Notes under the pieces: model-generated
Seen by the model: only the letters and a program-made list of their open reading frames with translations
Told to the model about the DNA's origin: nothing
The model's database searches: none
Source of the DNA: Geosiphon pyriformis
Taxonomy: Eukaryota > Glomeromycota > Glomeromycetes > Archaeosporales > Geosiphonaceae
Reading direction: 5' to 3'
DNA length: 64,000 nucleotides
NCBI GenBank assembly: GCA_016748015.1
Contig: JAAOMT010000779.1
Location: forward strand, 266,081-330,080
Part shown: positions 2,444 to 64,000 of the stretch, in pieces
Numbering within the stretch: position 1 is the stretch's first letter
Layout: each line of letters opens with the position of its first letter
Position numbers and translations under genes: made by a program

Positions 2444-2448
2444 TAATA
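2421..2448 (+). repeat. (AAT)9 microsatellite
   Basis: Nine uninterrupted AAT units, about 30 bp upstream of a LINE 3'-end fragment. Confidence 0.9.
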
Positions 2449-2476
2449 CATTTGGTTTTATATAATATTGTTTTAA

Positions 2477-3490: not shown

Positions 3491-5074
3491 ATGTCTGCTT
3501 CTCGCAAACGAAAGATTAATACCGAGTCGGAAGCGGATCGGAAGAAGAGAAAAGGTAAATGCATTAAAAATATTCCAAGATCGACAATAGAATATGATAT
3601 ATTCTCTACGTTGATTACAGGTTATTTTAGTAGACAAACTAACAATAGCGTGGCGAATTTGGAGCCAAACATATCTGGTATTTTTATCAGTTGTCCCAAA
3701 CACAAGGAGCGGAATTGTGTTAGAGAATGTTATGATTTGTTCAATGAAGTAAGTCTTCCTTGTTTAATGCAAATATTCCCGTTAATTCAACCTTATGATT
3801 CTCAAAAATCAATCAAAGTATGTTGAAAAGCTTTATGAAGTCGAGAATTCATCTGATCCACCAAATGAAGGTTCCACAGAGGACGTAGAAACAGCCTTTC
3901 TTAAAGAACTTGCATCGATGAAGAAGAAACATGGGGAATATATGTTTTCTTCAATACAAACTGGAACTGATTGCTGTAATTTGTTTTTGCAAGTTTATTT
4001 GGTGGTGCAAATTCTTCATTTTATTAATTTTACTAAATTGAAGTTTCTCAATAATAGCTGTATTTCTTAAAACAAATCCACCGGTTGACCCAGTACAACT
4101 GGTTCATTATATCTTAACCGATATCAATAAGACAAAACAAAAAAAAACCAGGTATTTTTATTCTTTTATGAATCTGATTTATCTTTTCCTAATTGGTGGA
4201 TTAATTATCCCATACATTTGAATCCAATAGATTTACCCAACGGCTAACCCCAATAACAAAAACTTGTTTTGCAAATATCCCTGCTATTGTTGAATTGGCT
4301 AAGGAAGTCCTTGGTCCTCATTTTGGTTGCAAAGGGGAAGTATCCCCAAGAAAAATCGCAGTAAGTGGGACGAAAAGTGGCTTTCTTCGAAAGTTGATTG
4401 ATATTTATCTATTTCTTGATTATTACTGGAGTACTCTGTTATGCCAAGGATTCGTAACAACTCGAAAATTGAAAGATTAGAATTGATTGATACTATAGTT
4501 GGGATTGTTGGGAAACAACATCCTGTCAACCTGGATAACCCGGAGCTTGTAATTATCGTTGAGGTTTTTAAGGTTAGTTTTTTGCGATATGAAACGTCTG
4601 GTGCTCTTTTGAGCCAACTGCCTAACAATAAAGTTACTATAAGTGCATACCATGTGTTTTCTTAAGATGGAAATTGAAATAAAGGGTCGCTGAGAACTAT
4701 ACCTTTTTTTATTATCGTCCACAAATTATCATATTTCAATAAAGCTCAGCATTTGATTATTATATTTTTTTGCTCAACAATTTTACCAGAGCATTTGTGG
4801 AATAAGCGTTGTTCAAGATTATTATAAGCTCAAGAAATATAATCTTGAGACGATAACTGTTGACGAAACAGACGCGAACCAGGAAACCACCAAGGCGCGC
4901 AATCAGAAGGATGAGGAAGTTGGAATCAGGAATATACGGGCTGGAGAACAGAAAAAAGTGGGCGAAAGTCAGGATGAAGAGTCGATTGCTGGTAAGGACA
5001 TTGAGGAAGATAAAGAAGATCCAGAAAATAAAAAGTTCGAGGGTGTGAATCCTATAGAAAATGAAAACGACTAG
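3491..5074 (+). CDS. TAN1: TAN1/THUMPD1 tRNA-acetylation adaptor (THUMP domain)
   Basis: TAN1 delivers tRNA-Ser and tRNA-Leu to the RNA acetyltransferase Kre33/NAT10 for N4-acetylcytidine formation. Exons 3491-3748, 3819-3975, 4058-4151, 4231-4360, 4432-4572 and 4790-5074 give a 354-residue protein with all phases closing. N-terminus is Lys/Arg-rich (SASRKRK); then CPKHKERNCVRECYDL as in the family N-domain; then FSSIQTGTDCSVFLKTNPPVDP, and a THUMP domain (about residues 145-270) with LTPITKTC, PRKIAYSV, RNNSKIER and a closing VFKSICGISVVQDYYKLKKYN. The C-terminal tail of about 75 residues is very acidic and low in complexity. Introns are 70-217 nt with canonical GT-AG ends. Family assignment is secure. 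The exon 5 acceptor was chosen because it keeps the KIAYSVM continuity; a nearby AG is possible. Confidence 0.92.
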
Positions 5075-15700: not shown

Positions 15701-18700
15701 TTTTGTTGTTTTATCTTAATTTATAAGCTTCATTTTCTATGTAAAATGGTTTATTCTATTTGGGGTCAAATTTTTCACTTTATTGTTTTTTTACTTTGTA
15801 CAATGTAAAAGTATTTTGTCTCCAATTCTGAATTTAACTGGTTTATCCAGTAACTAGTTATTATGTTGTTTTTTTTGTTTTTTTTGTAACTTTTGAATGT
15901 TATTAGCTGTTTTTTGTCTTTTTTTTTCTAAAGTTTCTATTAAGTCATATGTTTTTTTTAGCAATGTTTCTTGAAAGTTGTTTTCTATTATTGGTTCAGT
16001 TAGATATGTATTGACTTTTATCTTAACTGGTAATGTTGCTGTTCTACTATAAACAAGTTTAAATGGTGTTGCTTGTATAATATCTTGTTTTATTGTCTAA
16101 TAAGCAAATAGTATTAATGGTATAAACAAATCTCATTCATTCTGGTTTTTTTGACTAATTTTGGCAATTGTTTTACATAATGTTCTATTGAACTTTTCAA
16201 CTAAACCATTTGTTTATAGATAATATAGTGATAATAATGGTCTTTTGATTCCAAATCTTTGGCTTAATTCTATTAATGTTTTGTTTACAAAGTGAGTTCC
16301 TTGATTTGATAATAATTTTTTTGGACATCTGTGTTGACAAATCAAATTTTGATAAACAAATTTGGCTATAGATTCTGTATTTGCTCTTTGAATTGTTTTT
16401 GTCTCTGGCTATTTTGTAAGTTAATTTATGGCTATTGCTATATAATGATTGTTTTTACTGGTTATTGTTAATAGTCCAACTAAGTTAATTCCAATTCTAT
16501 CAAATAGTTGTCCTACTTTAATTGGTTTTAGTGGTTTACTGGATTTTGTTTCTCCTTTCTTTTGACAAGCATTACAATTTTGAACATATTAGATAATGTT
16601 CAGATACATTGATGACTAATAATATCTTTTTCTGGTTCTTTTTATGATTGCTTCTTTATAAAAATATTCTGCTGTTGGATCTAAATGCACATTGTACAAT
16701 ATTGTTTTTTTCTCTGGTTCTGTAATTACTCTGAGTAGTTAATTTGGATCTTTTCTGTTTTTTTAATATAGTATGTTTTGGTAAGTAATAAAATATTTTG
16801 ATTGTTATTTTATGTTGTTTTATTCCATTTAAGATAATTTTTCCTTGAACTGTTAGGTGTTAATATAGTGTTGGAGTTGTTAATATTTTTGTATATTCAT
16901 TTTTTGTTATATTTTTGAATTAAAATGTTCTTAGATTTGTTTTATTTACAACAAACTGTTAGCATTTCCGTTTTTTTTTTTTTTTTTATAATATAATGTA
17001 TATTTGAATAATAAAAGTTCTATTTTTTATCTGACATAGCAGTCATCTCCAAATTTTTGTTTCTAAATTGATGTCAATTTTTTGTGATCAGTGTATACTT
17101 CAAACTTTTGGCTTAAATATTTTTTCTATTTGATAACTGTCCAATAGATAGCTAAGTATTCTATAGTTTTTTCTGCTGAACTTAAGCTTCAGCTGGCATA
17201 TGCTATTAGATGTTTTTGTTCATCTAGTCTTCTCTAAGATAGTACAGCTTTCAATGCTTGACCAAATGCATCTGTAATAATAATAAATAGCTTGCTGTGA
17301 TCTGAATAGATTAATATTAGTGCTTAAATAAGCTTTCTTCATAGAATGTTAAAAGCTTCTTGCTAAGTTTTAATCCATTCATATTTTACATTTTTTGTTT
17401 GAAGCTGATGAAGTGATTGGACCAGTTTGGAAAAATTCTGGATAAATCACTGATAATATTCTATGAATTCCAAAAATGTTCTTAATTCTGTGAGATTTGT
17501 TAATACTGAAAAGTTTTTAATTATCTCAATTTTATCTAAATCTATTTTGATGCTGTTTTTGCTTATAATATGTTCTAAAAATTTCAATTCTGTTTTGTTG
17601 AAAAAGCATTTAGTGGCATTTAACTTTAGTTTTGTTTATCTTAGTCTTTTAAACACTTACTGTAAATGATAAAGATAATCATCAAATGTCTTTGAAAATA
17701 TATTGGTGTTATCTAGATAAATGATTACTGATTTCCATAGTAGTTTTATATAAACAATTTCTATAAGCAATTAGAATATGGCTGGAATATTAGTTAAATC
17801 AAATAACATAACTTCAAACTCAAAATTCTTTTCTCTAATTGTAAAAACAGTCTTTTCTTTATCTTTTAGTTTTATGGCTATTTATCAGTAATTATTATCT
17901 AAATTTAATATTGAAAACCATTTCTTTTTTCCAAAAACATCAAATAATTTCTGAATTCATAAAGTTGAATAACTGTTTCCATGAGTAATATTGTTGAGTT
18001 TTTTGTAATCTACACAAAAGTGAATTTTTTCATTTTTCTTTCAGACCAGTACTATTAATAATGACCATAGACTTATTAATAGTTGAATTAACCCATTGTC
18101 TAACATTTGGTTGATTTCTTATCAGATAATTTCATGACTTGTTAATAGTACTCTGTATGCTCTTTGTTTAATTGGCATAGTATTTTTAGTCTTAATTTGG
18201 TGTTGGATAATGTCAGTTCTGCCAAATTCATTTTTACTGGCAAAAATATTAGTAAAATTGTTAAGTAATATCTTAAATTGCATTTATTGAAGTAGGTCTA
18301 AATTTTCTAAGTTTATTTGTTTCAATTGTTTTGGTTAAAGCAAATAACATTCTTCTTATTTATATATTGTTTGTAATGTAATATCCACATATTCACATAG
18401 TTGTAGAAAATCTGGAATGGTGCTTGGTGGTTAATCTTCAACTTTAGTGTTTAAGTATTCAATAGTGGTTTTCTTTGGTATTTCAATAAAGTCTCCAGTT
18501 GTATTGTGAATGGAAATTTTAATGTGTTTGTGATTTTTAGCCAGTATATAGAGATTAGTAATAGCAATTTCTCCTGATTTACAAATAGTAACTTCCATTT
18601 TAAAAATTTGGATTTGATCTTTTATTTTTCTTTCTATAACTATTAAATACTAATCATATAATAGAATAGAAATTGATTGATGAGTGAAAATAATTTCTTT

Positions 18701-19676
18701 CTTGTTAATAACTTTTTCCTCTATTATATTAACTGATATATCTATCTTATTCATGAATTCAAATCCATTTTTTCTTTTGGCTGTAATTTTTAATTTTTTT
18801 TTGTTCTTACTAATATTAACTGAGCTATTTTTACTAAAGGTAGGAATATTGCCTATGCTATTTTTTTATTTGGTTTAATCACATATTTTTTTTCTGAGTT
18901 ATTTTGTAGCATTGTAATAATATTTTCCACATATTCTGCATCAATTATTCCTCCTCTAATATTGATTCTCTTTTTTGCTAAACTAGATCTAGATGCTAAT
19001 TGAACCATTGTTGTTGTTGAAATTTTCAGTGCTATTTTCAAATCAATACAGATGTGCAAATATGGTTCCAATTTGATGGCATTTTTTCTTAGATATCTCA
19101 GATCAAACTCTGCATCAATATCATATATGTGTTTTGGCATAATATCTTCATCATTATTGCTAAACCATTTAAGTTTTTGCTTCTTTGAAAGATCAGAGAG
19201 CATAATATATTGTTTTGAGTTTAAATTAGAGTTTGAATTATCACTGTTGTCATTATTATTTTGAATAAAGCTGAAACTATTGTTATTATTATCATTGAAG
19301 TCTAAATCAGAATTGAATTTTGATCCTAATTCTGCTATGCATTTACTAATTGGTTTTTCCTCTTTGAACATCGAATAAATCATGTGTAGTAGTAGATTGT
19401 AAATGATGTCACAGTCATTATAATACTAAAAGTTACATGGTATTAAACAGTGATCACATAAATAAGTATTGAGTTGTTCTAAATATTGCTCTTGTTTCTC
19501 TTTAGTTGGTGCTAATTCTTGGTAGTGTTCATGGAATTGTTTAGAGTCTATCACATTAAAGATAATATTGGGATTTAAAACCCAAATAATCTCTTCTGGT
19601 TTTGACAGGTTGTTTTTAATGGTCTTAATTTCTTCTGAAGTTGCTTCTTTGATTTTGGCGATTGCTATTTTCCAAA
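15700..19676 (-). pseudogene. A1 pol remnant: integrase, RNase H, RT and dUTPase
   Basis: Translation blocks collinear with element B. Integrase about 15770-16620 (the region that reads as the Pro-Gln-Thr-Asn...Glu box and the H/C zinc region); RNase H about 17100-17400; RT about 17450-18200 with the catalytic loop around 17700; linker to about 18560; dUTPase 18853-19130; start of the Cys-rich region to 19676. An open block (19383-18853) carries AEFDLRY, SRSSLA and GGIIDAEY of trimeric dUTPases, then stops at KKIA followed by TAG where Gln is expected (CAG to TAG). Otherwise stops and frameshifts are dense. Non-functional. Confidence 0.75.
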
Positions 19677-20510: not shown

Positions 20511-23500
20511 CTAGATTTATGGCTACTTGTTAGTAATTTCTATATAAGTTCAATGTTAAAAACTATTTTTTTTTTCTGAAAGCATCAAATAATTCTTAGA
20601 TTTGTGGAGTTAGATAACTATCTTCATAAGTAATACTGTTAAGTTTTTTGTAATTCACACAAAAATGAATCTTTTCATTTTTTTTTAAACAAATATTACT
20701 GGTAATAATCATAGATTTATTAATGGTTGAATTAATTTATTGTCTAACATTCTGTTAATTTTTTGTTAAATGATTTTATGGCTGGTTAATAATACTCTGT
20801 ATACTTTTTGTTTGATTAACATTGCATTTCTAGTTTTGATCTGGTGTTGGATAATGTCAGTTCTGCCAAATTTATTTTTATTGGCAAAGATATTAATAAA
20901 ATTGTTAAGTAGTATCTTGAGTTGTATACTTTGAAGTAGGACTAGATTTTTTAAATTTATTTGTTCTAAATGTTTTGGTTATAGCAAATAACATTTTTTT
21001 ATCTGTATATGGTTTATGATGTAATATTTACATACCCACAAAGTTATAGAAAGTCTAAAATAGTAGTGGGTGCTTGATTTTTAACTTTAGTGCTTAAATA
21101 TCTGATAATAGTTTTATTTGATATTTCTATGGAGTTTTTAGTTGTGTTATGTATTAGAATTTTGATGTGTCTATAGTTCTTGGCTGGTATATAGAAATTG
21201 GTAATGTTAATCTCTTTTAATTCACCAATGTTTGTTTTAGCTTTAAAAATCTGGGTTTGATTTTTTACTTTTCTTTCTATAACTAATATATACTAATTAT
21301 ATAGTGAAATAAAAATTAATTGATAGATAAAAATAATTTCTCTTTTATTAAAGATTTTTTCTTCCATCATATTAATTGATATATCTATTTTACTTATTGA
21401 TCCAAATCTTTTTATTTCTTTTGCTGTAATTTTTAACTTTTTTTTTATTTTTACTAATACTAATTAAGCTATTTTAACCAGAAACAAGAATATTGTCTGT
21501 GCTATCTTTTTATTTGGTTCAATTGTGTATTTTTTTTCTGAGTTATTTTGTAGTATTATAATAATATTTTCTATATATTCTGTATTAATTATTTCTTTTC
21601 TAATATTAATTCCTTTTTTTGTTAAACTAAATCTAAAAACTAATTAGATTATTGTTGTTGCTAGAATTTTCAGTGCTATTTTCAGATTTATACTAATACA
21701 TAAATAAAATTCTAATTGAATAACAGTTTTTTCTAAATATCTAAAATTAAATCTTATATTAATATTATGTATGCATTTTGGCATAATATCTTCACTGTTA
21801 TTGTTAAACTATTTAAGTTTTTGCTCTATTGAAAGGTCTGAGAGCATAATATATTGTTTGGAATTGTACTTGGAATTTGAATTGTTATTGTTGTTATTGT
21901 TATAATGAATAGTATTGAAATCATTATTGTTGTTATTATTGTAGTCTAAATTATGATTAAATTTCAATTTCAATTCCAATGTGCACTTGCTAATTGGTTT
22001 TTTTTTAGGAATCAAATAGATTATATATGATAATAGATTGTAAATAAGATTACAATTGTTACAATATTTGAAATCACTAAAAATAATGCAATATTTATAA
22101 AATTTAGTATTTAATTGTTCTAAAAACTGTTTTTGCTCTTTTTTAATGGGTGTTAAATCTTGATAGTATTTGTGAAATTGTTTTGAATTGTTTAAAATAT
22201 TGATAAATGTGTCTGAGTTAAGAATAAGAACAGTCTCAACAGATTCTGGTGAGTTGTTTTTAATTGTAAGTATTTTATTGAATGAAGTGTTTTTAACTTT
22301 GGCACTTGTTATTCACCAAATTTTATTTTTGTCATGTGAGTAACTATCTAAGCATAAAAGTGCTCAGTTTTATGCAGTATTAAAAGATGTTTTTTGGCTT
22401 ATCCAGTTACTTATAAGAATTGTGTATTAACATAAAATATCACATGTTCCTTCTCAACTAGAAATGTTATTCCATATTTTTTCATCAAGTAATATTTCTT
22501 TACAAGTAAACCATAGTTTATTATCTTATTTTTTTTGTTATTTTAAATACTTAAAATGTTTTCAGTAACACAGTTTGCAGTAGTAATGGGTGCATGTCCA
22601 GTAATTTTTTTAGACAAGATCTAAGCTTTCATAAAAAAAAACTTTTTATTATAGTTAATATATCTAAGTAGAATATATGATAATTTTTTCTTTATGTCTA
22701 TGAAATATAATTTATTCCAGCTATTGGTTATTTTTTCAGTAATTGTAGTGGCTTTTGGTTTATCTTTTTTTTTTTTTTTTTTTATTATTCTAAAAAAGTA
22801 TCAGCAGTAATTTATTGTGTTTGTTTTCAGTCCATAAGACTTGATAGACTTCTCAAGTAGGTTATTTTTTTCCTTCAACTTGATCAATGATTGTTCTCTT
22901 AAAAGAGCTTTAAAATGTCTACAAGTAACAGACACTTAAGTATGCTAATTCTTAAATATTAACTAGAGCTTTTAAGTGTTTTAGTCAAATACAGTATTGG
23001 TTTTAAACAGTTAGTTATTACTAATAAGAGCTTAATATTATGTGGCTTTTATTATCAGAATTTTGATTGACATGATGATACCATTGACTTCAAAAAAAAA
23101 ATTGTTGATTTTACCAATAGAAGTTTTCATTACTCTATTAACAGTAATAATTTTGGTGCTGGTAGTGTGATCAACCTAACAACCTAATTGGTTTATAAAT
23201 TGTTATGTGATGATGCTGTCTGCTAACACATTATTAATAATTAATTTGATAGGTTAGACATCAATTTTGGCATCTGTGTACATAACTGTAATAAGTTTAA
23301 TATTGAAAATGGCTCTGCTAAATAGAGATAGTATTATTAATTTTTTTAGTTTAAAAAAAAATATGGCTGTAAGTAATTTGTTTTCAATAATAGTTACTAA
23401 TAGAATATTGTTGATAAGTAGTGTTTTTGAGCCTTTCAAATTATTGAATAAGTTGGTTTTTGGAGTAATCAGAAGACTTAAATAGTTTTAAGAATTCAGG

Positions 23501-26268
23501 TTTTGGGTGTACCCACTTTTTGAACTCTGTTGACATAATTTTAATAGCTGAGTTGAAAAACTGGGGATTAATTGATATATTATTATCACTAATCTCTAAT
23601 TTTGCTGAGTGTGAGTAATTGTCAGTCTTAGATTTTCAGTAAATACTGGCACAATAATTTGGGATAATACTTGAATTTGTTGTAGTTGATAAATTACTGT
23701 AACTGTTAATAAATTATTAGTGCTGAAGCCTAATAAACTGAAGATATATATATTGATTATTGTATTATTGATACATAATATGATTAGTATTGTTCCTAAT
23801 TCTGGGTATAATTTGGAGTTTGAAACTGGTAATTAGAGTTTTTTGTTGTCATAATTAATTGGCTAATAAGAATAATAAACACAATTGATTTTGAAAACAA
23901 TCAGAGTTTCCTTGATTGTTGTGGTATTGTAAAGACTGATAAATAACTTAATTGTTAGCTAAATATCCTTCAATTTTCTGATTGATGACTTTGCTAAATT
24001 GTTTCAATTTGGTATCTAATTTAAATAATTCATTCATTACTAGATTTACAGCTTGGACATAGTTGGTTTCAAGTTTGGCTGATTCAAAATCTTAGACATG
24101 TATAACTGCATTCTAGAAAGTATTTAGATACATTAGATGTACTTTTTGTAATAAGCTGCTATATAATCTACAAATAAACTGGTTTAAAATCTGTGCTTTT
24201 ATAAAATAATCAGCTTGAATTGCCTGAATTTGGTGCAAATTTCTGTAGAAATGTTCTAAGTAAGTAGTAACTGCTTTGGTATTACCCTATTTGATGATAG
24301 TAAAGCTAGTTAACAAATAATTAATGCTGTTGTAATTGCTAAAATATTGTAAAAATATGGTTTTAAATATATTAAAAGTTTGTGGTTTATTAACTAAGTT
24401 CTAATATTATTAGTTAATAATATTCTATAAAAAATAAAAAATGGCTTGAAAAACTCTGGTGTTATCTTAATTATTGGTTATAATTATTTTGGTTATATTG
24501 TTTAATCATGCTTGGTTATTGTTTTTTTTACTTATAAATTTTTCAAGTTTGACAATAAGTATATATGCTATTGGTGCAAATTGTTGTGATTATAATTGTT
24601 GTTGAGATTGTTGTTAAGGTTATTGTTGTGGTGTGGTAATTGGTGCAACTGGTGGATCAATTATAATTATTAAAAATAAGTTTGGCTGAATAATAAAAGT
24701 GAGATTTAGATTGTTCAGGTTTTATGGAGTTTAAACAATCAGAATTTGTATTTTTGGATTATTTGAAATCAGATTTGGATTATTATTTTCCTAATTACTG
24801 TCTTCTTTTTTTTCAATTTAGTATCTTTTCAATAACTGATAGATTCGAAATTTGGTTGAAGTAACAGTAATCAAAGTTTTAATAGTATTGTTGATTACAA
24901 ATTAAATTTTTCAAAAAAATTGTCATATGTTTCTAATAATTTGACTTTTTCCTGATTATTTTGGAATGAAATCAAAATAATAGTGCTTTTATAGTTAATG
25001 GTAATATGGATTCTAATAATATATAGATAGTACTTTTGAATATATGATAATATAATAAGTTAATAAATAAAACAACTCTTGAATTCTTTTAATTAAACAG
25101 TTGTATTTTTTTTGGTGTTTTTGCTGACATTTGTAATTTTTTTTTGTCTGCAAAAATAATAGAAAATCTTTATTGGATGTATTTTTCAATTTCTTTGTTT
25201 ATTTTTGTAATTAATAGTGCAAACAAATAGTTTGATAAAAGTGTGATATTTTGGAGTAATTACTGTAGAAATTGTTCTGAATCTTATTGATTTTCTAAGT
25301 AGGATTTAATTTTTTTGTTAATATAAAAATTGAAAGCTAATTTTGTTGGCCAATAGTTACTTGTTAATCCAAGGTAAATTTGATAATGTTAAAATAAGAA
25401 TTTTACAAATTCTAAATAATTTTCTCTTATGATTTTTTTATCTGCTATTGTTCCAAATAATTGATATTAATGCTGTTATGGAAGTGTTTTCTTGGTATAT
25501 TTTAATTGTTAATATCTTGTTTTAATTGCAATCAGTTTCTTGTAAGTTTCTTAATTTTATGTGTTAGATATTAATGATAATGTACTGAAGGTTTTCTCTT
25601 GATGTTGTGATATAAGTCTTCTTTTTAATTCTAGTTGTCTTTGTATGTTGTGTACTTCTTCTTAGAGGCTAATCTGAAATTTACCCACTGTCTGGAGTTT
25701 TTTTTGAAGCTATCCTTGCAATTGCCTGATGTGTTTCTCTAATCTAGAAACACAAAATGTTAATGGCCTTTTCATGATTTTTTTAAGTATATAATAAAGC
25801 TTTTTCAATTTAATTAGTAACCACATAAATAATCTTGATCAGGGATTATTCTTCCAAAAAGTTTAAAGATGAAATGATAATTTCATTTACTAGAGAGAGT
25901 ATGTGAATTTTATTATTAATCTTGTAATTGTAATGTTTATTCAATTTATTATTTTTATTAATTCTTTTTGAATAAAATTTTATTTAGATATTTGTTGCTT
26001 CAAGTTGAAGCTGTTTTTTTCTTCATTATTAAAAACTATTGTATATATATATAATTATTGTTTTATAAAATAATGTCTTGTAATACTCTATTTCCGTAAT
26101 TTCTAAATAGTGCTTACTGCTTTTGCATGATAGTGCTTGCTGTTATTTGTAAATTATTTCTTTTTATAAATTGTTGTTGTGCTATTTCATAATTGGCTAA
26201 TTTATATTATTTATAATTCCTATTAAATTCTTGAACTGTAACAATGCTAATTTTTTGTTGGATTATAC

Positions 26269-52442: not shown

Positions 52443-54789
52443 GAAATCGACTAGAGAACTTTCACGTTCTTTAAACAAGTGTAATCGGATTTCTTGGGCG
52501 CTCCTATCTCAAGTTCTGTGAACAAAAAGCTTGAACACCAAGTGTTTCCTTGACTTTACTGATCAGTTAGATATTCCAGATGAACAGAAAAATCAGAATA
52601 TCATTATAGAATGATGGCTCCGTCTTAGAGATCTGAGTTAGAAAATGTGAAAACATGGTTAAATAATTGCTTGTTCATTCAACCCATGCTTCGAAAATAT
52701 ATTAGCTAAAGGTCAGCTCAAAGGTTTATTTCCTTAGGAACAAGAAAGATCTCGCACGAATAAATCCTTGCGAGAACCCCACCATAAATCTGTGAACAAG
52801 TTCAAGTTCTCGGCAAAGAAAACCTTTGACCGGGATGATAAACGAGCTCGTAGATTACGTGTTGTTTTTCCCAGTCATCGAATGGATAAACTTCTTGTTT
52901 TTCATCATTCAGCCAATGAAGTTAAAAGGCAAAAAGAGAATTGTTCGTACCTTCAATTGCAGGAGTCTTTGATCTTTCAAAGTATTGGGATTTGTTTTCT
53001 TTCATATATGGCTTGAAACCTGAGGTACAGGATAGAAATCTAGTGTCAGTATTGAATAGGAATCTCAGATAGAATTGAAAACAAATTGAAAATATGTATC
53101 AGGATCAAGAAATAATCACAATGAGATTCAGTTGAAACACGGATGATAATTTAGCATCATTTACTTAATATTGAAAAGCCGTATGCTCAATACTGACCAT
53201 CAAGAAAATGAAGGAACACTACAAAGTGAAAACATAAAGGTAGAGTTAAAATGATATCTTCAAGGATGTTCTTCATGGAACATGGGACTTGTGTCAGAAA
53301 ATGGTTTTGGTATTTAGGTTAGCTTCATTTAATATTTCAGAAGCAGAACTGGTTATATTTTGTTTCATCATTATTAATTATCTTTGAAAGGTCTTTAATA
53401 AGAGCTCAACTACGTACCATTTACTACCCACTAAAGAATGATTCGTTGTGCACCAATCTGGAAGTTAATAATAATAAGATTAGACAAGCCAATGTATTAC
53501 TACTTTTAAGAAATACGATTATAAATATCAGATGGTAGTGCATGTTTTGTTTTTGGCTCATTTGTTTGAATAAATCACCGAAACAAGTGTGGAAACTTAT
53601 CATCCCGTATAAAATGGAAATCAAAAGTCAATAATGAATTGAAAGAATTCAAAAAATTTTTATACTTGCATCAAGTTTATAGAAATGCGGATAAAATCAA
53701 ACATTCCGATTTGATTGAAGGATTCTTGCCATCCTGATAGCCAAAAATGGTTATAACTGAAGCTTGAAGCTTCCTGCTAAGCTTTAATAAATTTTAACCC
53801 GTAAGAGTCACCTCTAACAGTAGGACCAAAAGTTAAAATGCGTGAAATTAATATTATCGATGAAATATAATGACCAAAATCCCCATTAAAACTTTAAAAA
53901 TTACAATATAGGCAAATAATAACCTAAATGATTGTCACAAATAATAGATAAATACCTCAGGGATGACATGAATGAAACCTGCGGGAAATTGTCTTGCTAT
54001 TAAATTTTTAGAGGAACCAAAATAAAATACGAGATATGTCTTCAATAACAGTCATTGAACCAAATTTTCGAATACTGCAAAATTATTAAAAGGATTGTTG
54101 TTCAGAAACGAGGAATCCCTGTAACTTTACGCTTTATCCACATACTCGTAAAACATGTTCAGTGGTATCAAAAGGACACGCAAAATAATCATCAAAACAA
54201 TCAAAATAAAAGGCTATCATTAACAGACAAGAAAATTAAAACACTTGTTGCTTACCAGAACGTAAGGAAAAAAAATCTTTTTTTTTTTGCAATATTTATA
54301 TACCTTTCACGTGATACAAACAGCCAGTAATCGAAAATAAAGATCTTGGATATTTATTATTTTAAATTAAACAATTACAGTAATATTTATTTTGTAAAAA
54401 ATAATTCCAATTTTATAATTATATAATACAATAATAAATGTTCTAAATTAAATAGAACATATGTATTTTTTACATATAACCAATTATCTTATTTAAAAAA
54501 GCCTATTTCTTTGCATATCAAAAACCAAACCAATTATATTAGACTTAATATTAAAAGTTTAAAGCTTTTAAGAATTATTATTTTAACAAAATTTATCTTA
54601 TTAATATGAAAATATAAATTATTATTAAACAGATTATTTATATTATACTTTATTTTAAGATTAATTATCTTTTTGTTTAAATTGGCAACAATTTTTTTAA
54701 ATATATTAATATCTTTTTTAATTTTAAAATTTTTATTTTATTTTAATATTTAAAAAATATATTAACTTTATAATTAAATTTTTTTTTTA
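52443..54789. other. Gene-free region right of the TTL gene
   Basis: Balanced composition up to about 54330, then AT-rich. Short open frames (for example 52768-53016 and 54055-54330) have no recognisable motif and no splice support. I see no gene, RNA gene or element here. Confidence 0.5.
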
Positions 54790-55605
54790 TTAACATGTTT
54801 AACGAGTGTAGTCCAATCACTATCTAGTACATAGAGCCAAACTAAGAGGCTCAAACTAAATGCGACTCATGTACTTTCTACATGTGGCTAGCCACTCAGG
54901 CCAGACAAGGCAACACTACACATCTATAATAATCCGCACACTGCCACCCAGACCAGAAAAGAAACAATAAGGCTTCCAATAACCAAAGCTAACAGCAAAA
55001 AAATTGGCCACACCAAGCAATCTTACAATACCATTAAACAAAACTGAAGACACACTATAAGAGAGCCCAGAAACAACACCACCATCACAAACCAGACCAG
55101 TCTTCTCTATCACCATCTAGTGGCTGGTCCTAGCCAATCACACTTTAGCACGATGTAGCTCAACCATGAACCTGACATAATCAACGATCTGAGTAGTTGC
55201 CACCTTCTTATCCTCAAAAATACTATAAGCTTCCTTATACCACTCCCTCAACACAAACCCTTTGCAAACCAAAGTGTACAACCCAACATCAATGGAACAT
55301 TGAGACAAAACTCACAACACAGCAGAAGCAGAGGAACTGCTAACCAAAGCTGACCAACGGGCAGAAGCCTCAGCCAAAATCTTGCCACGAATACCAGACT
55401 CATAAACACAAGTAAAAGTGTGGTCAGAGAACTCCACCCCACTGCAAAACAAACATAATACACTAGGGTAGCGCTTATTATACAACCTTTTCTTTACCAC
55501 CACTGGCAATCTTCTGTGCACAGCCTTCATAATATAAATGCAAAGCATTGAGGATACCTGGCTAGTGAACCCAGTAAGCATATGAGAATCAGGATGCCAC
55601 ATCTT
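54790..55605 (-). mobile_element. LINE copy 3, 5'-truncated (ORF2 C-terminus and 3' UTR)
   Basis: The minus strand encodes MWHPDSHMLTGFT, RLPVVVKKRLYNKRYPSVLC and the Cys/His motif CLFCSGVEFSDHTFTC (55602-55312). These correspond to the end of ORF2 in copy 1 (6250-6050). Further frames run to about 54916 with disruptions. The 3' UTR (54928-54797) includes GTGGCTAGCCAC and ends in an A-rich tail at 54780-54796. The right end abuts an LTR at 55606, so it may have been cut by that insertion. Confidence 0.8.
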
Positions 55606-56229
55606 TGCCGTTATTACTAGAGGTTTTTGGTCTTTTTTCTTAAATGTTATTGATGTTTGTTTGCTGTGAATTTCATGTTTTCTGAATGTGGTTGAACCTT
55701 CAATAACTAATTTATCTTCAAATTATCTTCTATAATTTGAACTGCTGGGCTTATAAGTGGAATGGCCAATTCCATGCCAGTTGCTTTGTGTAGTTACATT
55801 GTAGTAAACATTAACTCTTTCTCAGGAATTGCTCATCTGAAAGCTTACTAAAATGTGTAGTTACTTTGCTGTGAAAGTCAACTCTTCTACAGGAATCTCG
55901 TTTGTAGGTTACCCTAATAATTATAATAAGAAAATAAAAATAAAAGAAAATAAAAGAAATGTAAAAGAAATAGAATTTTTGTCAAGAGAAACGTTTTCTA
56001 TCCAGGCCTGGAGTTACTAACAGATTATTGAAATTGGTAGCTAATCAATTTCAAAACGTTAGTTGTGTTGAAGAAATTTTAAGTATAATAATTTAAGGAT
56101 TTGGTTTTTTAAATATTTAATTTTTATTTTAATGTGTAAAAAAAAGTGATTTGTTCTAATTAAGATACTTAAAGTAAGATACATTTTCTCAAAAAAAGAA
56201 GCTCTTCTTTTATACAACTTGTCGTAACA
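55606..56229 (-). repeat. Putative 3' LTR of element B
   Basis: Plus strand begins TGCCGTTATTACTAG and ends CTTGTCGTAACA, giving TG...CA ends. It contains an AATAAAAATAAAAGAAAATAA-type run in the position of the AATAAAA repeats of the A LTRs and a few shared short strings. Its left edge coincides with the end of LINE sequence. No clear polypurine tract follows on the right and the other LTR lies outside the window, so limits are tentative. Confidence 0.4.
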
Positions 56230-56290
56230 CTATTCTATGAACTTGAACTTTGCTATTTTCTACAATTTTGCTGAACTAAAGATACATTTT

Positions 56291-56390
56291 GGCAAACTAC
56301 AAGTTATTTCTGCGAACTATTAGATATTTCGGTGAACTATTAATTATTTCGGCGAATTTCTATAAATTTCAGTGAACTTTTGAATATTAC
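56291..56390 (+). repeat. 20-bp tandem repeat, five units
   Basis: Five consecutive 20-bp units of the form GGYGAACTATTAATTATTTC (first GGCAAACTACAAGTTATTTC, second TGCGAACTATTAGATATTTC). The array and its right flank recur in degraded form at 32892-33140. Confidence 0.85.
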
Positions 56391-56562
56391 ATAGTTCGGG
56401 ATATTACATGATTGATCATCGCAATTAGGTTACATTTGTGTTGTGTACAATTTGGGTTATTAATTAAATGATAATTTCGAACATTTTTGCTAATGTAATA
56501 AGTGGTAATTTGAAATGATAATATATGCTAATTAATGATAGGAATTATAAGATAATTTTATG

Positions 56563-57282
56563 TTAAATAATATTTCTAATTTCGTCTGGTAACATAACCT
56601 CCTCCTCAAGACTGAGCTCCGTCGAAATCCAAGTACTGTTTGTCATTTCCAGATAATAATCCAAAATTATTGAAGAAATTTGGTCTGAAAATTGTTGAAA
56701 TTTCAGTTCTGTGAGCTTTCCAATGTATTGAATCTTCAAAGATTGAAAAATTGGGTTTTGTAGTACGTTTTCACAGATGTGGAATAGGTCATAAAGTCTA
56801 AGAGTAGCTCTAAGCCTGTAGCAACTGTTTGTTGATCCAGCTGTTGTCTTGAATTCGTTGTGGAGTTGTTTCTGAATAGCTTTTTTTGTGAGGTTTGCTG
56901 TTGTAAGTTCCAGTTTCCATTCGTAGAGTGTTTTTCCAATGTGAAAATATCTATAGATTGGAGGATATTCAGTGTTTTCCTCATTGAGACACAGTTGAAG
57001 TCTTTGTTGAATTGTAGTATTTGGTGGAATACTAATCAGAGTGAGCATTAAATTTTCTCTTAAAGCAAGTTTTAAAAGTTTTAGCAGGTGAATTCCAGTA
57101 TAACTTCTTGTGTTCTTCTTATACGGATGATATTTTCGTGAATTTGGGGCTAAATTTGTAACTACTTCTGTTTGGGTATAATTAATGTGGTTTCCAGTAA
57201 CAGTAATAGATAATTCAGGTATTGTTTTTAAAGCTAACATTAGTTTTTGGGATAATTGTTGAATGTTTTGAGGAATAGTCAT
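56563..57282 (-). CDS. Intact 239-residue ORF downstream of pol in element B, unknown function
   Basis: Not recognised. It starts MTIPQNIQQLSQKLMLALK at the first ATG (57282) and runs open to 56563, while every other frame of this element is broken. The product is Leu/Thr/Gln-rich with no signal peptide, clear membrane helix or Cys/His cluster. It contains KYHPYKKNTRSYTGIHLLKL and an acidic end (LSLEEEVMLPDE). Its position between integrase and 3' LTR is where extra genes (env-like or accessory) lie in some LTR retroelements. It could also be a passenger host gene or chance. The strand matches the element. Confidence 0.5.
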   Translation of the reverse strand: MTIPQNIQQLSQKLMLALKTIPELSITVTGNHINYTQTEVVTNLAPNSRKYHPYKKNTRSYTGIHLLKLLKLALRENLMLTLISIPPNTTIQQRLQLCLNEENTEYPPIYRYFHIGKTLYEWKLELTTANLTKKAIQKQLHNEFKTTAGSTNSCYRLRATLRLYDLFHICENVLQNPIFQSLKIQYIGKLTELKFQQFSDQISSIILDYYLEMTNSTWISTELSLEEEVMLPDEIRNII

Positions 57283-57403
57283 TATAAGCAATTTGAAATA
57301 AAAGAAAATTATTTTTGGTGCATGGGTTTTTATGTTATTTTTGTTTTGTTTTTGTGAGATTGTTTCTAAATTATAAGAAGATAACTATAATAATAAATTT
57401 AAA

Positions 57404-58730
57404 TTAAGTGTTCAAGTTGTGAGGCTGTTCAATGACAACTATTGGTTCTAAATTTCGGGGAATGTCTTCGGAATTGATTAAAGGGGAATGTGTACCAATT
57501 TGTGGAATTAATGGTTCAGGATTGTTTCTGGAATTATAATGTTTCAAACAATCTCCATGTGCAACTTTTGCTAGAATTTTGTCATCAAGTCTTAACTTGT
57601 ATGATCCATTGCCTAAAACTTTATGGATAAAGAATAGTTCATCCCATTTATTTTCAAATTTTCCATTTCATTGTTTTTCGGCTTTAGTTCTGTGTAAGAG
57701 AACTTTGTTTCCAATTTTAAATTCATTAGTGACTGGAGGCAATTTGTTATCATGCCATTCTTTTTGTTGAGCTTGGGAGTATTCAATATGAGTGGCTGCT
57801 ATTCGTCGTTTTTCTTCCAATGTGCTAAGCAGAGTGTAGGCTCTTTGTTGAAGCATTTCTTGGAAATTGTTTTCATTGATTGGTTGTGCTGGGTATGTTT
57901 CCACTGTGAAACTAATTGGTAATGTTGCTGTCCTTCCGTAAGTTAAATCAAATGGTGTGTGTTTTGTGGTATCTTGTTTTAGTGTCCTATATGCTAGTAA
58001 CACTGATGGAATAAAGAGATCCCATTCTTGCTCAAAATCAGTTGAAACTTTGGCTAATAATTTACACAATGTTCTGTTGAACCATTCTACCAGTCTATTT
58101 GTTTGTGGATGGTAGGGTGAAGATAATGACATTAAATTGTCCACAAATTTCCTGGATTAAATTGTTCACGAAATGTGTTCCTTGATCAGATAAAAGTTCT
58201 ATTGGGCATCCATGTCTACAAATGATGTCTTCATAGATGAAGTTTGCTACTGATTTTGCATCTGCCTGTTGAATGGCTCTGGCTTCAGGCCATTTGGTAA
58301 GATAGTCTACGGCTACTGCAATGTAGTGGTTTCCTTGGTTTGTGATAGGTAGTGGTCCGACTAAATTGATACCAACTTTGTCAAAAGGCTGTCTAACTTT
58401 GATTGGGTTTAAAGGTTCTGTAGGGTGAGTTCCTTCTCTTTTTTGACAACTATTACAAGATTCAACATATTCGTGAATGTCTTTTCTTATTCGAGGCCAA
58501 AAGTAGTATTCTAGTGTTTTTTGGGTAGTGCTGTCTTTTTCGAAGTGGGCTGATAAAGGATCTGAGTCCATGTTGTATAATATAGTCTCTTTTTCCTGTT
58601 CTTGTATTAATCTGAATGGTTTGTCTGGGTTTTTGAAATTTTGGTAATAAATAATGTTGTTGTGTAGAAAATATTGTTTGGCTTGTTGTTATAGTCAATG
58701 TTTTTCATCTGGAGACCAATCTGTTGGGAT
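57404..58730 (-). pseudogene. Element B integrase
   Basis: Inserts element cDNA into the genome. Zinc region with CNSCQKREGTHPTEPL (about 58470-58420). DDE core: AVDYLTKWPEARAI (first Asp, about 58305), ELLSDQGTHFVNN (second Asp, about 58190) and YHPQTNRLVEWFNRTL (Glu, about 58090). The C-terminal tail has KIGNKVLLHRTKAEKQ and, past a disruption, FENKWDELFFIHKVLGNGSYK, then DGDCLKHYN-like text, ending at TAA 57404-57406. A frameshift at about 58145-58095 separates the second Asp from Glu. All three catalytic residues are still present. Confidence 0.85.
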
Positions 58731-58869
58731 TGTTAATGTTTTCAAATATTGTTTAAGATTATTGTAGTTTTCTGAATTCATTGTTTGTTGGCTCTTTTGG
58801 TTGGTTAAGTTGAGTGTTGATTTTTGTGTTTTTCTAATCTTGTTTCATTCTGGAGAGACAGTCAACATT

Positions 58870-59480
58870 GGTGTGGAGTTTTCTTGGTTTATAATGTACT
58901 ATGTATCAATAGTTTGCTAGAAATTCTGTCCATTGGGTTTGGTTTGCATTTAGCTAAGTATTTTTGTTCTGAAGCCCTTTGAGTCCAATATTATCAATGA
59001 TAATATCAAATTTTTTAGGCCTGAGATAAAGATTGAAATGGTGTAGGGCCCAAATTATGGCTGCTGTTTCTAGTTCTATGGCAGGGTAGTTTTTCTCAGC
59101 TGGTTTTAATGTTCTGCTAGCATAAGCAATTACTCGCTTATTTCCGTTGTCATCTAGTTGTGATAAGATAGCACCAAAGGCAGTATATGAAGCATCTGTA
59201 GCTAGTCGAAATCAGTTGCTGAAATCTGAGTAGGCGAGAATTGGAGCTGTTATCAGTTTTTCCTTGAGAATTTCAAAAGCTTTTTGGTGTTCGGTAGTCC
59301 ATTTGTATTCAACGTTTTTGGTGGTGAGCTGGTTGAGGGGTTTTGCAATTTCCGAAAATCTTTTGATAAACTTCCGATAGTAGGATGCTAATCCTATGAA
59401 TCCTCTTAGTTCTGTAGTGTTTCAAAGAGTTTTGAAGTTTTTGACAATGCTGATTTTTCTAGGATCTGGTTTAATTCCAT
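58870..59480 (-). pseudogene. Element B RNase H domain
   Basis: Degrades the RNA strand after reverse transcription. Readable motifs on the minus strand: VIAYASRTLKPAEKNYPAIE followed by LETAAIIWALHHFN, and LRPKKFDIIIDN, the usual Ty3/Gypsy RNase H text. Stops interrupt the frame. Confidence 0.75.
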
Positions 59481-60126
59481 CTTTACTAACAATATGACTA
59501 AGGAAGGCCAGGCTTGTTTTTCCAAAGTAGCATTTTTCGATATTGAGTTTTAGTCCTGCTTTTCATAATCATTGAAAAACTTCTCACAGGTGTTTTAAGT
59601 GTAATTCGAACAATGGAGAATAAATATCAGTATCGTCAAGATAAACGACTACTAATTTCCAAAGAAGTCCTTGATACACAATATCCATTAATCTCTGAAA
59701 TGTTGCTGGTGTATTGCATAATCCAAAAGACATTACATTGAACTCGTAATTTCTGCCTTGGATGGTGAATGCTGTTTTGGGGCAATCTTTGGGATCCATA
59801 GCAACTTGTCAGTAACTACTTTCTAAATCTAGTGTTGAAAAGTATTTGGATTTTCCAAGGGCATCTAACATGTCATCAATCCGGGGAAGGGGGTAGGTGT
59901 CTCCAATTGTAACACTGTTGGGTTGTCAATAGTCAACACAAAATTGGATCTTTCTATTTTTCTTTTTAACTAGCACTACAGGTGAAGCCCAAGGACTCAT
60001 GAAGGGTTGAATGAGCCCATTGTTAAGCATTTGTTGTACTTCTTCTCAGATGAATTGGTGGCTTTCTGGAGCAACTCAATATGCTTGTTGTCTTCTTGGT
60101 TTGGCATCTTCTGTATAAATTTGGTG
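59480..60126 (-). pseudogene. Element B reverse transcriptase
   Basis: Motifs in order on the minus strand: EEVQQMLNNGLIQPFMSPWA, SPVVLVKKKNRKIQFCVDY, DTYPLPRIDDMLDALGKSKY, FSTLDLESSY, then QVAMDPKDCPKTAF, FGLCNTPATFQRLMD, and catalytic VVYLDDTDIYS (YLDD at 59632-59643). Stops at 60076-60078, 60046-60048, 59926-59928, 59809-59811, 59569-59571 and 59563-59565 fall where Trp or Arg is expected. Catalytic residues are kept but the frame is dead. Confidence 0.88.
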
Positions 60127-61080
60127 TTAAACCAAATTGGTTCTTCCTAAGTTATTGTTGTTTTCAGCAAAGATATTGGCAAATTCTGTAATTAGCTCTT
60201 TGAGCTGGGTCTGTTGTTGTGGTTCAAGTTGTCCCATATTGATTCGAGATAGTTTTTCCATGACAACATGGTAGTTTTCAGAGCTGGGGTTTGGGTTGAT
60301 TTTTGGTATTGAATGTCCAATAATTTCAGAAAAATTGGGAACTGTTTGGGATAATTCTTGTTGAAATATATTACTGTGAATAACTCTAATTTCTAAATTA
60401 TTTAATAAAATTATGGGGTAATTATTGGGATTGTAAAAAGTAACTCGGACTTTCTTTGTTTCTTTTGGAATATAAATGTTTGGGATCGAAATATTATGTT
60501 CCAAGCAGACTTGTTCATTGGACTCAAAAATTTGTTGTGTGGTTGTTGGCTTTGGGCAGATGTAGATTTCTGGATGTTCTCCAAAGGATAAGATGGTAAT
60601 TGGTTGTGGAAGTCTGAGAATCTGGTGGGATTCGTTCTGTGTGTTAAGAGCTATGTTAACTGGAACTGTGAATCGTCCAGTTGAACCAAAACCTTGGGTT
60701 CCTCTATCACTTTTTCCTAATTGTTCTCTTTGATTGACTAGTTGCAAACCCGAAATGTTGATTAAGGGTAGGTAAATAGCTTGGGCAATTTTTTCAGCAT
60801 GTTCGATCTTAAATGGTTTGTCAGTTTCATTTTGAAGCATCACTGTAATGTCTCCAGTATATTCAGCATCGATTATTCCTCCTCTGACATTGATTTTTTT
60901 GCTTGCCAGAGAGGACCAGGAGGTAATTTGAACCATTGCTCCTGGCAGGATTTTGAGTGCAATTTTGAGGTTGATTTTTGTGAAAGATTTGGGTTTGAGA
61001 ACAAAAGTATCCTTGCCTGGATATCTTAAGTCATATCTAGCATTAATTTCGTGTGCTTTTTGGGTTTTATTCCTTGTCCG
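60127..61080 (-). pseudogene. Element B trimeric dUTPase domain plus linker to RT
   Basis: dUTPase converts dUTP to dUMP and pyrophosphate and keeps uracil out of DNA. The open frame contains all five motifs of the trimeric family: 1, ARYDLRYPGKD (Ala codon at 61039-61041); 2, TSWSSLASKK (the usual Arg is Trp, a CGG-to-TGG change; copy A1 has SRSSLA); 3, GGIIDAEYTGDITVML with the catalytic Asp; 4, EKIAQAIY; 5, DRGTQGFGSTG (60676-60705). A linker of about 170 residues follows and ends at TAA near 60127, where Gln is expected. Known in some retroviruses and many DNA viruses as an acquired domain. Here it lies between protease/Cys-rich module and RT. Confidence 0.88.
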
Positions 61081-61199
61081 TTGTTGTTGAAGTATTTAAG
61101 TTGTAAGGCAGGCTGATTTTCGATAAGGTAGATAGGTGTTGTTTCAATTTTTTCTGTTGCTTCAGGTTCTCCAAATTCAATTTTGTTCTTATTATTTTT

Positions 61200-61880
61200 G
61201 CTGGGCAAGGGAATACTAAGAGCATAGCATTTAGGACATCACTGTTCATTGCAAGGCATAATGCATTCTTTACATAGCCTAATGTTCATTTGCTCTAATC
61301 ATTGAATTTGAGCTTCTTGAGTTGGGTAGGTGTGACTTGCAATTTGGTGGTAGACTTCTACTTCATTTTCGTAATCAAATCCAGCTAATTCCATGGTGTA
61401 TTCAATGTATTCTGCTTCTTTCATTTGGCGAACATTTTTTTTGGTAGCTCTATTAATTAATGCCATTGCTAGGTCGAAAATCATCTCAGCATCATAGAGG
61501 TAGTGATAAAGTTTGTTGAGAGCACTGTTGTATGCCGCATTAAAGGGTGTTCCTCTTTTTACTTTTTCTGAAATTGATAAAGTATATTGGCAGGTCTGAT
61601 CACAGACTCTTTCTCTTATGGCTACATCAATCCAATTGTATTCTTTTGATAGTATATCTCCACAAGTCAAACAAGGGGTGTTGTCCCATTTTCCACTCCT
61701 TTTTATTAAATGGCCCCATCATTCTCTGTGGCAAGCTTTGCAGTAATAACAAGTATGATTTTCATATTCTTCTTCAGGTGAAATGCAGGCTCCCATTGAC
61801 AATAGTTTTTTGTGGCAGTCTTTACATTTAAGGAGAATATAGGGGCATTGTTTTCTTGGTTCAGGTTTTGAGTAAAGGAT
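61200..61880 (-). pseudogene. Element B Cys-rich module between protease and dUTPase
   Basis: Minus-strand text holds repeated CxxC/CxxH pairs: CKDCHKKLLSMGAC, HTCYYCKACHRE, PCLTCGDIL, then a helical segment (61670-61299 with KRGTPFNAAYNSALNKLYHY and YIEYTMELAGFDYENEV), then LCKECIMPCNEQ and CPKCYAL. Three in-frame TGA codons stand where Trp fits (after HRE, after AQIQ, after CNEQ). It looks like a zinc-binding module; no family name recognised. The order relative to dUTPase is conserved in A1/A2 as far as they can be read. Confidence 0.6.
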
Positions 61881-62111
61881 ATTTCATTCAGAAGTTTTGG
61901 GTTCAGAGTGTGGGGTAAAATGTTCTTGTTCTGTTTCATTGGCCCAGTTGGACGTTGATTTAAAAGCCATGAATGTTTCAATAAGAGGTTTTTTCTCTTC
62001 CGGTTTGAATTCAAAAGCTGGGGCTTTTTCAGAGCGTTTGTTAAATGTACCACAAGTGGCAGGTACCCGGGCATGTTGTCCTTGATAGGAGATTGTTAAC
62101 TCTTGTGTTTC

Positions 62112-62640
62112 TCAATTCAAATTAGCATTGGCTTTCTGAAGCCAATCATTTCTGACAAGAGCTTGGTACTGAGGTGCATTCATTATAAGAACTTTGACTA
62201 AAATGGTGATTCCATCAAGAGTGAATGGAAAATTGTCAATTTCTTCTACTGGGGTCTTTTTCATGTCATCGGCAGTGATGATTACTGTTTGAGCTGGTCG
62301 GTTGACATTTCTCTTCAACTGTTACATTAACTGGTAGGTGATAATGCTTCCGGCGGATCCACTGTCTAGGATCAAGCAAATTGTCTTTCCTTTAACTTCT
62401 GCTTTAGTGTACATAGCCGTGATTGCTTTTTGTTTATTGGCAGCTGCATTACTAAGCAGAGATGGTGATTCATTTGCTTCGAACTCAAAAGGGAATATAT
62501 CTGAAAGGTTAGCATTTTCTGCGATTCTGGCTGGTGGGATTGTGATAAGAGTATAGGAAGAGTTTTGTTGTTGTGCTGCAGCTCTACCTTCCGAGGGTGC
62601 AGTATGATGAAAATCTTGTTCTTCTGGCATTGTTAAATAA
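62112..62640 (-). pseudogene. Element B aspartic protease
   Basis: Processes the Gag-Pol polyprotein. Active-site motif LILDSGSAGSIIT (DSG at 62358-62366; many elements have DTG), preceded by a region with AEVKGKTI; the second block (62318-62112) contains ILVKVLIMNAPQYQALVRND, matching the flap and downstream strand of retropepsins (xxGxDWL-like NDWL). A stop and frame change lie between the blocks at about 62320. Confidence 0.75.
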
Positions 62641-64000
62641 CTGGGTTGAGTGTGGTAGTGGTTGGGTCTTGGTTGAGTGGAATTTTGAGGAATCAATTGG
62701 TTATTCGAACTGATTCTATTGTTGTTTACTTGGTATCAGTTTTGTGGTGTGAATTGATTCTGTGTAAGCAGTCTTCAAGCAGGTACTTGATAATGTTGTG
62801 TGGGCAGTTGTTGGTATTGCTGTTGGATTGGCTGTGGGACAGGCTGATAATAGTTATTTTGATATTGGGGTCTTGGTGGATAGTAAACTGGTAGTGGCAG
62901 TTGATAATAAGATTGCTGTGGTGGAGGGTAATGTTGATTACTTTTATTTTGTTGGTCTCGTTGTAGCTTTCTGCAATCTCTTTTCCAGTGGCCAGAGATT
63001 CCACAGTAATGGCAATTTTGAGGCTGGTTATTGGAAAGTGGTGCAAAGTTATTTTGATTTTGTCTTTGGGGTGGTTGATATCTTTGGGGTTGCTGTTGTT
63101 ATTGATTGGTGAAATAGTTTCAACCTTCTTTGTAAGTTGGTCAATTTTTTCCTCAGCTGCTGAGCTGGTTTCTCCAATTGTCAAATTTACAAGTTTTGTG
63201 TGATTGGCCTCTTTCATGGCCATTTTGTATCTTTTTGCATGCTGTATGGCAGAGTTTAAATCTTCTGGCGCATGTGGATGAATCTTTTTAATTAGTTTAT
63301 CTTTTAGACCAGCAATAAATTGATCCAAGATTTGAGCATCGGAATAATAATTGTTTGTTTCGAGTTGGCAAATTTGTCTGAGAAGTTTGTTGAATTTTTC
63401 AATATAAGTTATAACAGATTCGGAGGGTTCTTGTTTGATATTTTGAAAACAATTACAAAGGGTAATGGAAGTATTATTGTTGGTGAATTGTTCAAGGAAG
63501 GCTGCTTTGAAAGCATTCCAATTATTGAATGGAGTGGCCAAGTTTTCAAACTATTCTCCTGCTGTTCCTTTGAGAAAGTAGGGAATTGTTCTTAACATTC
63601 TGGCAACATTCCATCCATTTGCATCTCCAGCTTTAGTAATTTGGTCGAGCCATTCTTGGGGACTGGTCTCAATATCTTCTCCATTGAATTCAGGGATTTT
63701 TGTGATGTATGTTGTCATTTCGTCTTCTTCGTTTTCACTGTCTATTGATTCTTCTTCAGTTATTTCAGAGTTGTTTTCTTCGTTTGCTGCTGTCTCAGAG
63801 TGTTCACTTTGATTTTCAGCTAGAAAATCAAGGAGATTGGAACTAGTTTGAAGGGGTTTTTGTTGTCTGATGGGACTTCTGAGTGATGTAAAATCTTTTG
63901 GTCTTGCAAATCAATTCAAGAGTGAATTAGGTGTTTGTGCTTGTGCAAGTGAAGCTGGAAAAGGTGTGATAGTAAGTGGAAGTTTTGAACTGGTTCCTTG
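62640..64000 (-). pseudogene. Element B gag with CCHC zinc knuckle, N-terminus outside the window
   Basis: Gag forms the particle and binds element RNA. Readable in one frame from the right edge: acidic segment, EFNGEDIETSPQEWLDQI, FENLATPFNNWNAFKAAFLE (capsid-like Retrotrans_gag text), QFIAGLKDKL and IQHAKRYKMAMKEAN; then after a frame change the knuckle CHYCGISGHWKRDC (62973-63014), then Gln/Pro/Asn-rich sequence. Stops at 63911-63913 (TGA) and 63551-63553 (TAG) replace expected Trp codons. Confidence 0.85.

Follow-up and report, generated by a model that had tools for sequence, protein, structure and literature searches.

A Pol dUTPase between protease and reverse transcriptase in an abundant, largely decayed Ty3/Gypsy family of Geosiphon pyriformis, followed by a putative second dUTPase-fold domain

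dUTPase domains are a known cargo of retroelements. Several Ty3 elements of the fungus Postia placenta carry one, which lies between protease (PR) and reverse transcriptase (RT) in PosPlaTy3-5; the same report cites earlier dUTPase-bearing elements from Phanerochaete and Tuber (Tmt1), notes that the place of the domain varies among Postia families and considers repeated origin likely (PMC2864245, 2010). In the bdelloid rotifer elements Juno, Vesta and TelKA, dut is likewise located between PR and RT (PMC5408684, 2017). PF00692 is enriched among transposable element-related families in Entomophthora muscae (PMC11105155), and a dUTPase has been annotated in one vertebrate metavirus using HMM and structure tools (PMC11011659). 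In beta-retroviruses and non-primate lentiviruses the enzyme forms part of the polyprotein and has been proposed to aid replication in non-dividing cells (PMC4531489), and its placement varies among retroviruses (PMC5408684).

Here, we describe a Ty3/Gypsy family from Geosiphon pyriformis, a member of the Glomeromycotina, that resembles these systems in carrying a dUTPase in its polyprotein. Given that a dUTPase between PR and RT is already published in fungi and rotifers, the family is another case of known cargo, and the suggestion in the preliminary description of the locus that placement upstream of RT is uncommon, and perhaps undescribed, is contradicted by those reports (PMC2864245 and PMC5408684). 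The elements of Postia, Phanerochaete and Tuber are also fungal LTR elements, and PosPlaTy3-5 shares the Geosiphon placement, but their hosts are basidiomycetes or ascomycetes. Compared by description, the Geosiphon family is a variant of the published dUTPase-bearing Gypsy elements, with a Cys-rich module before the dUTPase and a predicted second dUTPase-fold domain after it; the Postia descriptions consulted mention neither. The rotifer elements have the same placement of dut but differ in their animal hosts and in their kinds of ORF3, and Juno has a Zn knuckle after dut where Geosiphon has the Cys-rich module before. Two environmental sequences, P0019 and P0066, also encode PR, dUTPase and RT in one frame. 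P0019 shares the Cys-rich module and the linker that lies between dUTPase and RT in Geosiphon, whereas in P0066 the dUTPase passes into the RT lead-in within ∼12 residues, without a linker. No publication on this family came to light in a search of the open-access literature on dUTPases, fungi, Rhizophagus, arbuscular mycorrhiza and Geosiphon.

The window analysed is a stretch of 64,000 nucleotides, part of contig C117 of the 124.7-Mb G. pyriformis genome, and coordinates given without a locus name refer to it. Profile searching bore out the presence of a dUTPase as first described: the minus-strand translation of 61080-60631 matched PF00692 with an E-value of 3.9e-19 and a score of 69.1 bits, where the curated cut-off is 22, residues 9-135 aligning with profile positions 9-129 of 129. 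At E ≤ 0.001 the same translation matched 57 distinct sequences in the PDB. Almost all of them carry the name dUTPase, and human, yeast, bacterial and lentiviral enzymes are included; the remaining names were pol polyprotein, CG4584-PA, Wsv112, DU and uncharacterised. The domain occupies 60676-61056 in an open frame and, judged by these similarities, is a predicted trimeric-type dUTPase that would form a trimer and hydrolyse dUTP. The claim that all five motifs are complete holds for the family but not for the window copy, in which the Arg of motif II is replaced by Trp. Motif counts were made on 62 annotated Geosiphon rows: of 98 aligned rows, the 71 that filled 60% or more of the columns were kept, and from these the query and 8 environmental sequences were removed. 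The motif II Arg was present in 43 of 60 rows and the motif III Asp in 47 of the 61 rows with a letter there, while the motif III Tyr (61 of 61) and the motif IV Gln (62 of 62) were invariant. Asp was often replaced by Asn, Gly by Glu, Arg or Lys, and Ser by Leu; Thr to Met was likewise among the main departures.

Domains were placed in the window by tblastn with domain pieces from related copies and from the window itself. The result is a decayed minus-strand copy with the order gag, PR, Cys-rich module, dUTPase, linker, RT, RNase H, integrase (IN), an additional 3′ ORF and an LTR; both the Ty3/Gypsy assignment, on the Pol order PR-RT-RNase H-IN and a Ty3-type capsid, and the position of the dUTPase between PR/Cys and RT agree with the original reading, which had the glomeromycete host right as well. 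The gag capsid region (63152-63718) matched PF03732 (1e-11) and PF19259 Ty3_capsid (3.8e-8) and was also placed by tblastn. PR (62049-62462) was found at 54% tblastn identity to the PR of locus L030; the PRs of L030 and L023 match Pfam aspartyl protease families, and the window's own PR pieces matched no Pfam family at E ≤ 0.01. The Cys-rich module (61251-61832; 39% to L023) fills the interval between PR and dUTPase, and the linker (60292-60672, with a tblastn extent of 60130-60672; 22-24% identical to the L023 linker) that between dUTPase and RT. RT with its N-terminal lead-in (59401-60228; RVT_1 for 59587-59799) and RNase H (58858-59340) matched L023 at 60 and 50%, respectively. IN, comprising zinc-binding, core and C-terminal parts, extends over 57671-58571, with matches to Integrase_H2C2 (1.3e-12) and rve (3.4e-10) for 58098-58571 and a downstream piece, 57671-58144, that is matched in related copies.

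Downstream of IN lie the additional 3′ ORF of 242 aa (56566-57291) and a 3′ LTR (55612-56594), which is 88% identical by blastn to the 3′ end of locus L016 and starts with TGTTACC as L016 does; its approximate end at ∼55612 was set by alignment to L016. The element was originally given as 60127-62640, a span that covers only PR to the end of the linker; in the window it can be traced from ∼55612 to 63718 in gag. A second (5′) LTR was not found in the searched interval 54001-64000. Read against relatives, the copy contains 17 in-frame stops: 1 in gag, 2 in PR, 2 in the Cys-rich module, 9 in RT, 3 in RNase H and none in dUTPase or linker, a count that leaves out IN and the 3′ ORF, for which the queries were the window's own open pieces. 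The two further copies reported in the window are real, and they are more decayed. One (15797-19644, minus strand) comprises a Cys remnant, dUTPase (18796-19164), linker, RT, RNase H and IN; the other (20515-24505, minus strand) comprises gag, PR, Cys-rich module, dUTPase (21368-21808), linker and part of RT. Both were placed by tblastn and contain stops, and in each the dUTPase lies between remnants of the Cys-rich module and of linker and RT.

The LTR features of Ty3/Gypsy elements (TG start, purine tract, primer-binding-like site) were seen in related loci; the window does not contain the LTRs as a pair. The LTR of L016 is ∼980 nt long (TGTTACC...GGTAACA) and its 5′ copy is followed by TTTGGTG..., a primer-binding-like site; the LTR pair of L033 (646 nt) is 97.4% identical; and purine-rich stretches precede the 3′ LTR in L028, L019 and L035. 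The Cys-rich module (L023:3696-4280 in that locus) has several CxxC pairs and looks zinc-finger-like by eye. It is common to the Geosiphon elements and P0019, and the stretch at this place in P0050 is Cys-rich but by eye different-looking. It matched no Pfam family, at E ≤ 0.01 for the window pieces or at E ≤ 1 for the L011 copy. The 3′ ORF, whose stop codon lies ∼30 nt inside the 3′ LTR, was found in 8 of 28 larger loci (L010-L016 and L020) and had no Pfam match at E ≤ 0.01. No chromodomain was detected at E ≤ 1 in the single integrase C-terminal frame scanned, that of L011. At L018:6531-8741, a non-LTR (LINE-like) frame with Exo_endo_phos and a weak RVT_1 match shares the locus with a dUTPase element.

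A genome search with the window's dUTPase gave 4,100 first-look candidates, and all 150 that were scored matched at 82 to 100% identity; with PF00692 there were 3,181 candidates, and 150 of 150 scored exceeded the cut-off. These repeat counts are lower bounds, the verified matches being the 150 scored. The order PR-Cys-dUTPase was observed at near-constant spacing in all 28 larger loci, with the linker in 27 and RT downstream in 23; the five loci without RT contain 20 to 4,665 N letters in the examined stretch, and the RT of L034 lies about 2.7 kb off its usual position. Given that these loci were chosen by their dUTPase, they are informative on order only, and copies were therefore also sampled by RT. 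Eight copies were drawn systematically from the 150 best RT hits, a set made up of the closest relatives of L023, and in all 8 the dUTPase was present at the expected place upstream, at 55 to 86% identity to that of L023. Members lacking the domain, the finding that would have spoken against the family trait first proposed, were thus sought, and in this small sample the trait stood. Two subfamilies, L023-like and window-like, both keep the dUTPase even though their domains are only 52% identical. The window feature is best explained as the dUTPase encoded in pol of a Ty3/Gypsy family that is both very abundant and largely decayed, and whose Pol regularly includes the domain.

Protein recruitment yielded 88 proteins, 79 from Geosiphon and 9 from environmental or unnamed records, with no other named organism among the 88. 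Recruitment was restricted in length and required words in common, and repeats are often masked in annotations, so that these numbers describe the recruited set only. The database searched contains host dUTPases of Rhizophagus, Gigaspora, Glomus, Funneliformis and Paraglomus.

The host's own enzyme is encoded elsewhere, by a canonical, intron-split gene with the motif IDADYRG (L037, C262:402283-402983). Its product, as joined from exons and missing the C-terminus, is 74% identical to the Hesseltinella and Absidia (Mucoromycota) enzymes and 30% identical to the window domain over 92 residues. In a genome search with human dUTPase the best match scored 57.7 bits at 36% identity, and none of the 150 matches listed was the host gene. 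The degenerate pattern (I/V/M)DEDYRG had no occurrence in the genome; a wider pattern occurred at 16 places, against 21 for a reversed control, and one of these (IDADYRG) was the host gene.

A tree was built from 52 hand-picked rows: 13 host dUTPases from a list of 120 plus the Geosiphon host gene, 16 stand-alone dUTPases from a second list of 120, 8 environmental elements, 12 Geosiphon elements, the window and L023. The phylogeny suggested at the outset was run with fungal host enzymes and returned a separate retroelement clade, but retroviral dUTPases, like those of rotifers and Postia, were left out. One branch (100/100) had on one side the 14 Geosiphon and 8 environmental retroelement dUTPases, and another (100/99) had on one side the 14 host enzymes. 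The 16 stand-alone environmental dUTPases were dispersed: relative to the midpoint, 7 fell with the hosts and 9 with the retroelements. The window row grouped with P0034 and environmental P0019 (96/93). Since the search that supplied the retroelement rows used similarity to L023, a single origin holds for the sample only. Capture from the present host gene was rejected for the sampled sequences, in which the retroelement dUTPases form a clade of their own; by this sequence comparison, the element dUTPase belongs to a retroelement clade that also includes environmental elements rather than deriving from that gene.

Selective constraint was estimated as pairwise dN/dS over copies, with matches below 70% in identity or length set aside; the values blend neutral decay with the constraint that acts on the lineage while it transposes, and the loci were picked by dUTPase similarity. 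In the L023-like family, dN/dS was 0.40 for the dUTPase (18 copies), 0.44 for GAG, 0.53 for PR, 0.33 for the Cys-rich module, 0.51 for the linker, 0.44 for RT and 0.57 for RNase H. The window-like family gave 0.23 for the dUTPase (19 copies), 0.33 for the linker, 0.30 for both pieces of IN, 0.16 for GAG and 0.40 for the 3′ ORF (6 copies). The constraint on the dUTPase thus resembles that on RT and IN. This equality is difficult to reconcile with the idea that the domain is a neutral passenger hitch-hiking by chance on a successful element, as is its retention in both subfamilies and among environmental relatives such as P0019 and P0066; the decay of many copies is what such a passenger would lead one to expect, and we regard this disfavoured explanation as very improbable.

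The decay has its own signature. Among seven window-subfamily copies (the window, L010-L013, L015 and L016), transitions made up 9,941 of 11,200 counted pairwise differences, and the change rate was 0.58 at CpG compared with 0.14 to 0.19 in other contexts, i.e. 3 to 4 times higher. The copies have probably decayed by deamination of cytosine, in particular methyl-cytosine, which would explain TGA stops and Asp-to-Asn changes. The motif changes Asp to Asn, Gly to Glu or Arg, and Thr to Met are those expected from C-to-T decay on either strand.

The linker that follows the dUTPase may itself have the dUTPase fold. The predicted structure of the L023 linker, modelled with an alignment of 20 rows (A1) that includes the window row, has this fold (five-model means of 43 to 72), and fold searches matched it to dUTPases, with Epstein-Barr virus dUTPase and cytomegalovirus pp71 among the matches. 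Among the BFVD matches of the same model is the polyprotein of a badnavirus, Dioscorea bacilliform virus, which bears the name dUTP diphosphatase, and on the basis of the model, plant pararetroviruses may carry a related domain. At the level of sequence, PF00692 was found in 0 of 20 linker members even at E ≤ 10, and a PDB profile search with the linker gave no dUTPase at E ≤ 10. A first profile comparison of the linker, at 96.7% probability, was discarded because its alignment contained dUTPase rows (P0050 and P0083) and was out of register. The clean set comprised 47 rows, without P0050, P0056, P0062, P0063, P0066, P0069 and P0083, without those dropped by hand (P0008, P0010, P0011, P0018, P0034, P0049, P0070, P0084, P0089 and P0093) and without rows shorter than 100 residues. 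Compared with dUTPases profile to profile, it gave P values of 0.026 and 0.046 with an HH probability of 1-2% in local mode, and in global mode no sensible alignment to either dUTPase set.

Missing residues speak against an active second dUTPase: in the register of the profile comparison the motif III Asp position of the L023 linker is Pro, by eye none of the 20 rows of A1 has Asp there, and motif V (GFGSTG) was not found by eye. The linker is still constrained, with dN/dS of 0.51 and 0.33 in the two subfamilies, and as modelled is most likely a structural pseudo-dUTPase that would pack against the active domain or RT. That it is instead a small beta barrel of independent origin, its likeness to dUTPase being due to chance, we think rather unlikely. 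Two dUTPase-fold domains in one chain are found in herpesvirus dUTPases, in which one active site is spread over fused domains, and degenerate domains are known. In Geosiphon, by contrast, the five motifs are all located in the first domain. More tentatively, and with considerable doubt, the PR-RT stretch of Ty3/Gypsy elements in general might be a degenerate dUTPase-fold domain; the catalytic dUTPases of fungal, rotifer and perhaps retroviral Pol would then have an ancient relative as neighbour or would have taken its place. On this reading, both would occur in tandem in Geosiphon and P0019, the active one only in P0066 and the degenerate one only in P0093-like elements. No description of a dUTPase fold in the Gypsy PR-RT linker, or of tandem dUTPases in retrotransposons, was found in the open-access literature.

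Taken together, we consider it probable that the family encodes a Pol dUTPase acting in the particle, followed by a pseudo-dUTPase. The enzyme, released from Gag-Pol or working within it, would act as a trimer to lower dUTP during reverse transcription, and uracil would thereby be kept out of element cDNA where host dUTPase is scarce; the second domain would serve as a scaffold between dUTPase and RT. This role is proposed by analogy with retroviral dUTPases, and the complete motifs, constancy and constraint support it. In non-dividing cells, cellular dUTPase is low and virus-borne enzyme limits uracil incorporation (PMC4531489). The stops in the window copy and in many others count against this explanation. 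The domain could also have been kept for a non-catalytic reason, such as folding, Gag-Pol assembly or a signalling or chaperone role, with catalysis dispensable. Precedents exist in an inactive dUTPase-related protein of a lentivirus (BIV) that has a role (PMC4261571) and in other such proteins (PMC4531489), and the adjacent dUTPase-fold domain is constrained at the values given above despite having apparently lost its catalytic residues. Against this, the motif residues of the first domain are conserved and their main departures match C-to-T decay, and we judge a purely non-catalytic role to be improbable.

Few accessory enzymes are shared by retroviruses and retrotransposons, and a self-supplied dUTPase is one of them; here its candidate places number in the thousands in a single fungus, which is early-diverging and mycorrhiza-related. 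Since an abundant element dUTPase and a separately derived host gene coexist in one genome, acquisition of the enzyme and dependence on it are open to study. If the linker is a relict of the dUTPase fold, the origin of retroelement dUTPases, whether by late capture or from an ancient module of Pol since lost or inactivated, would become testable across Gypsy linkers.
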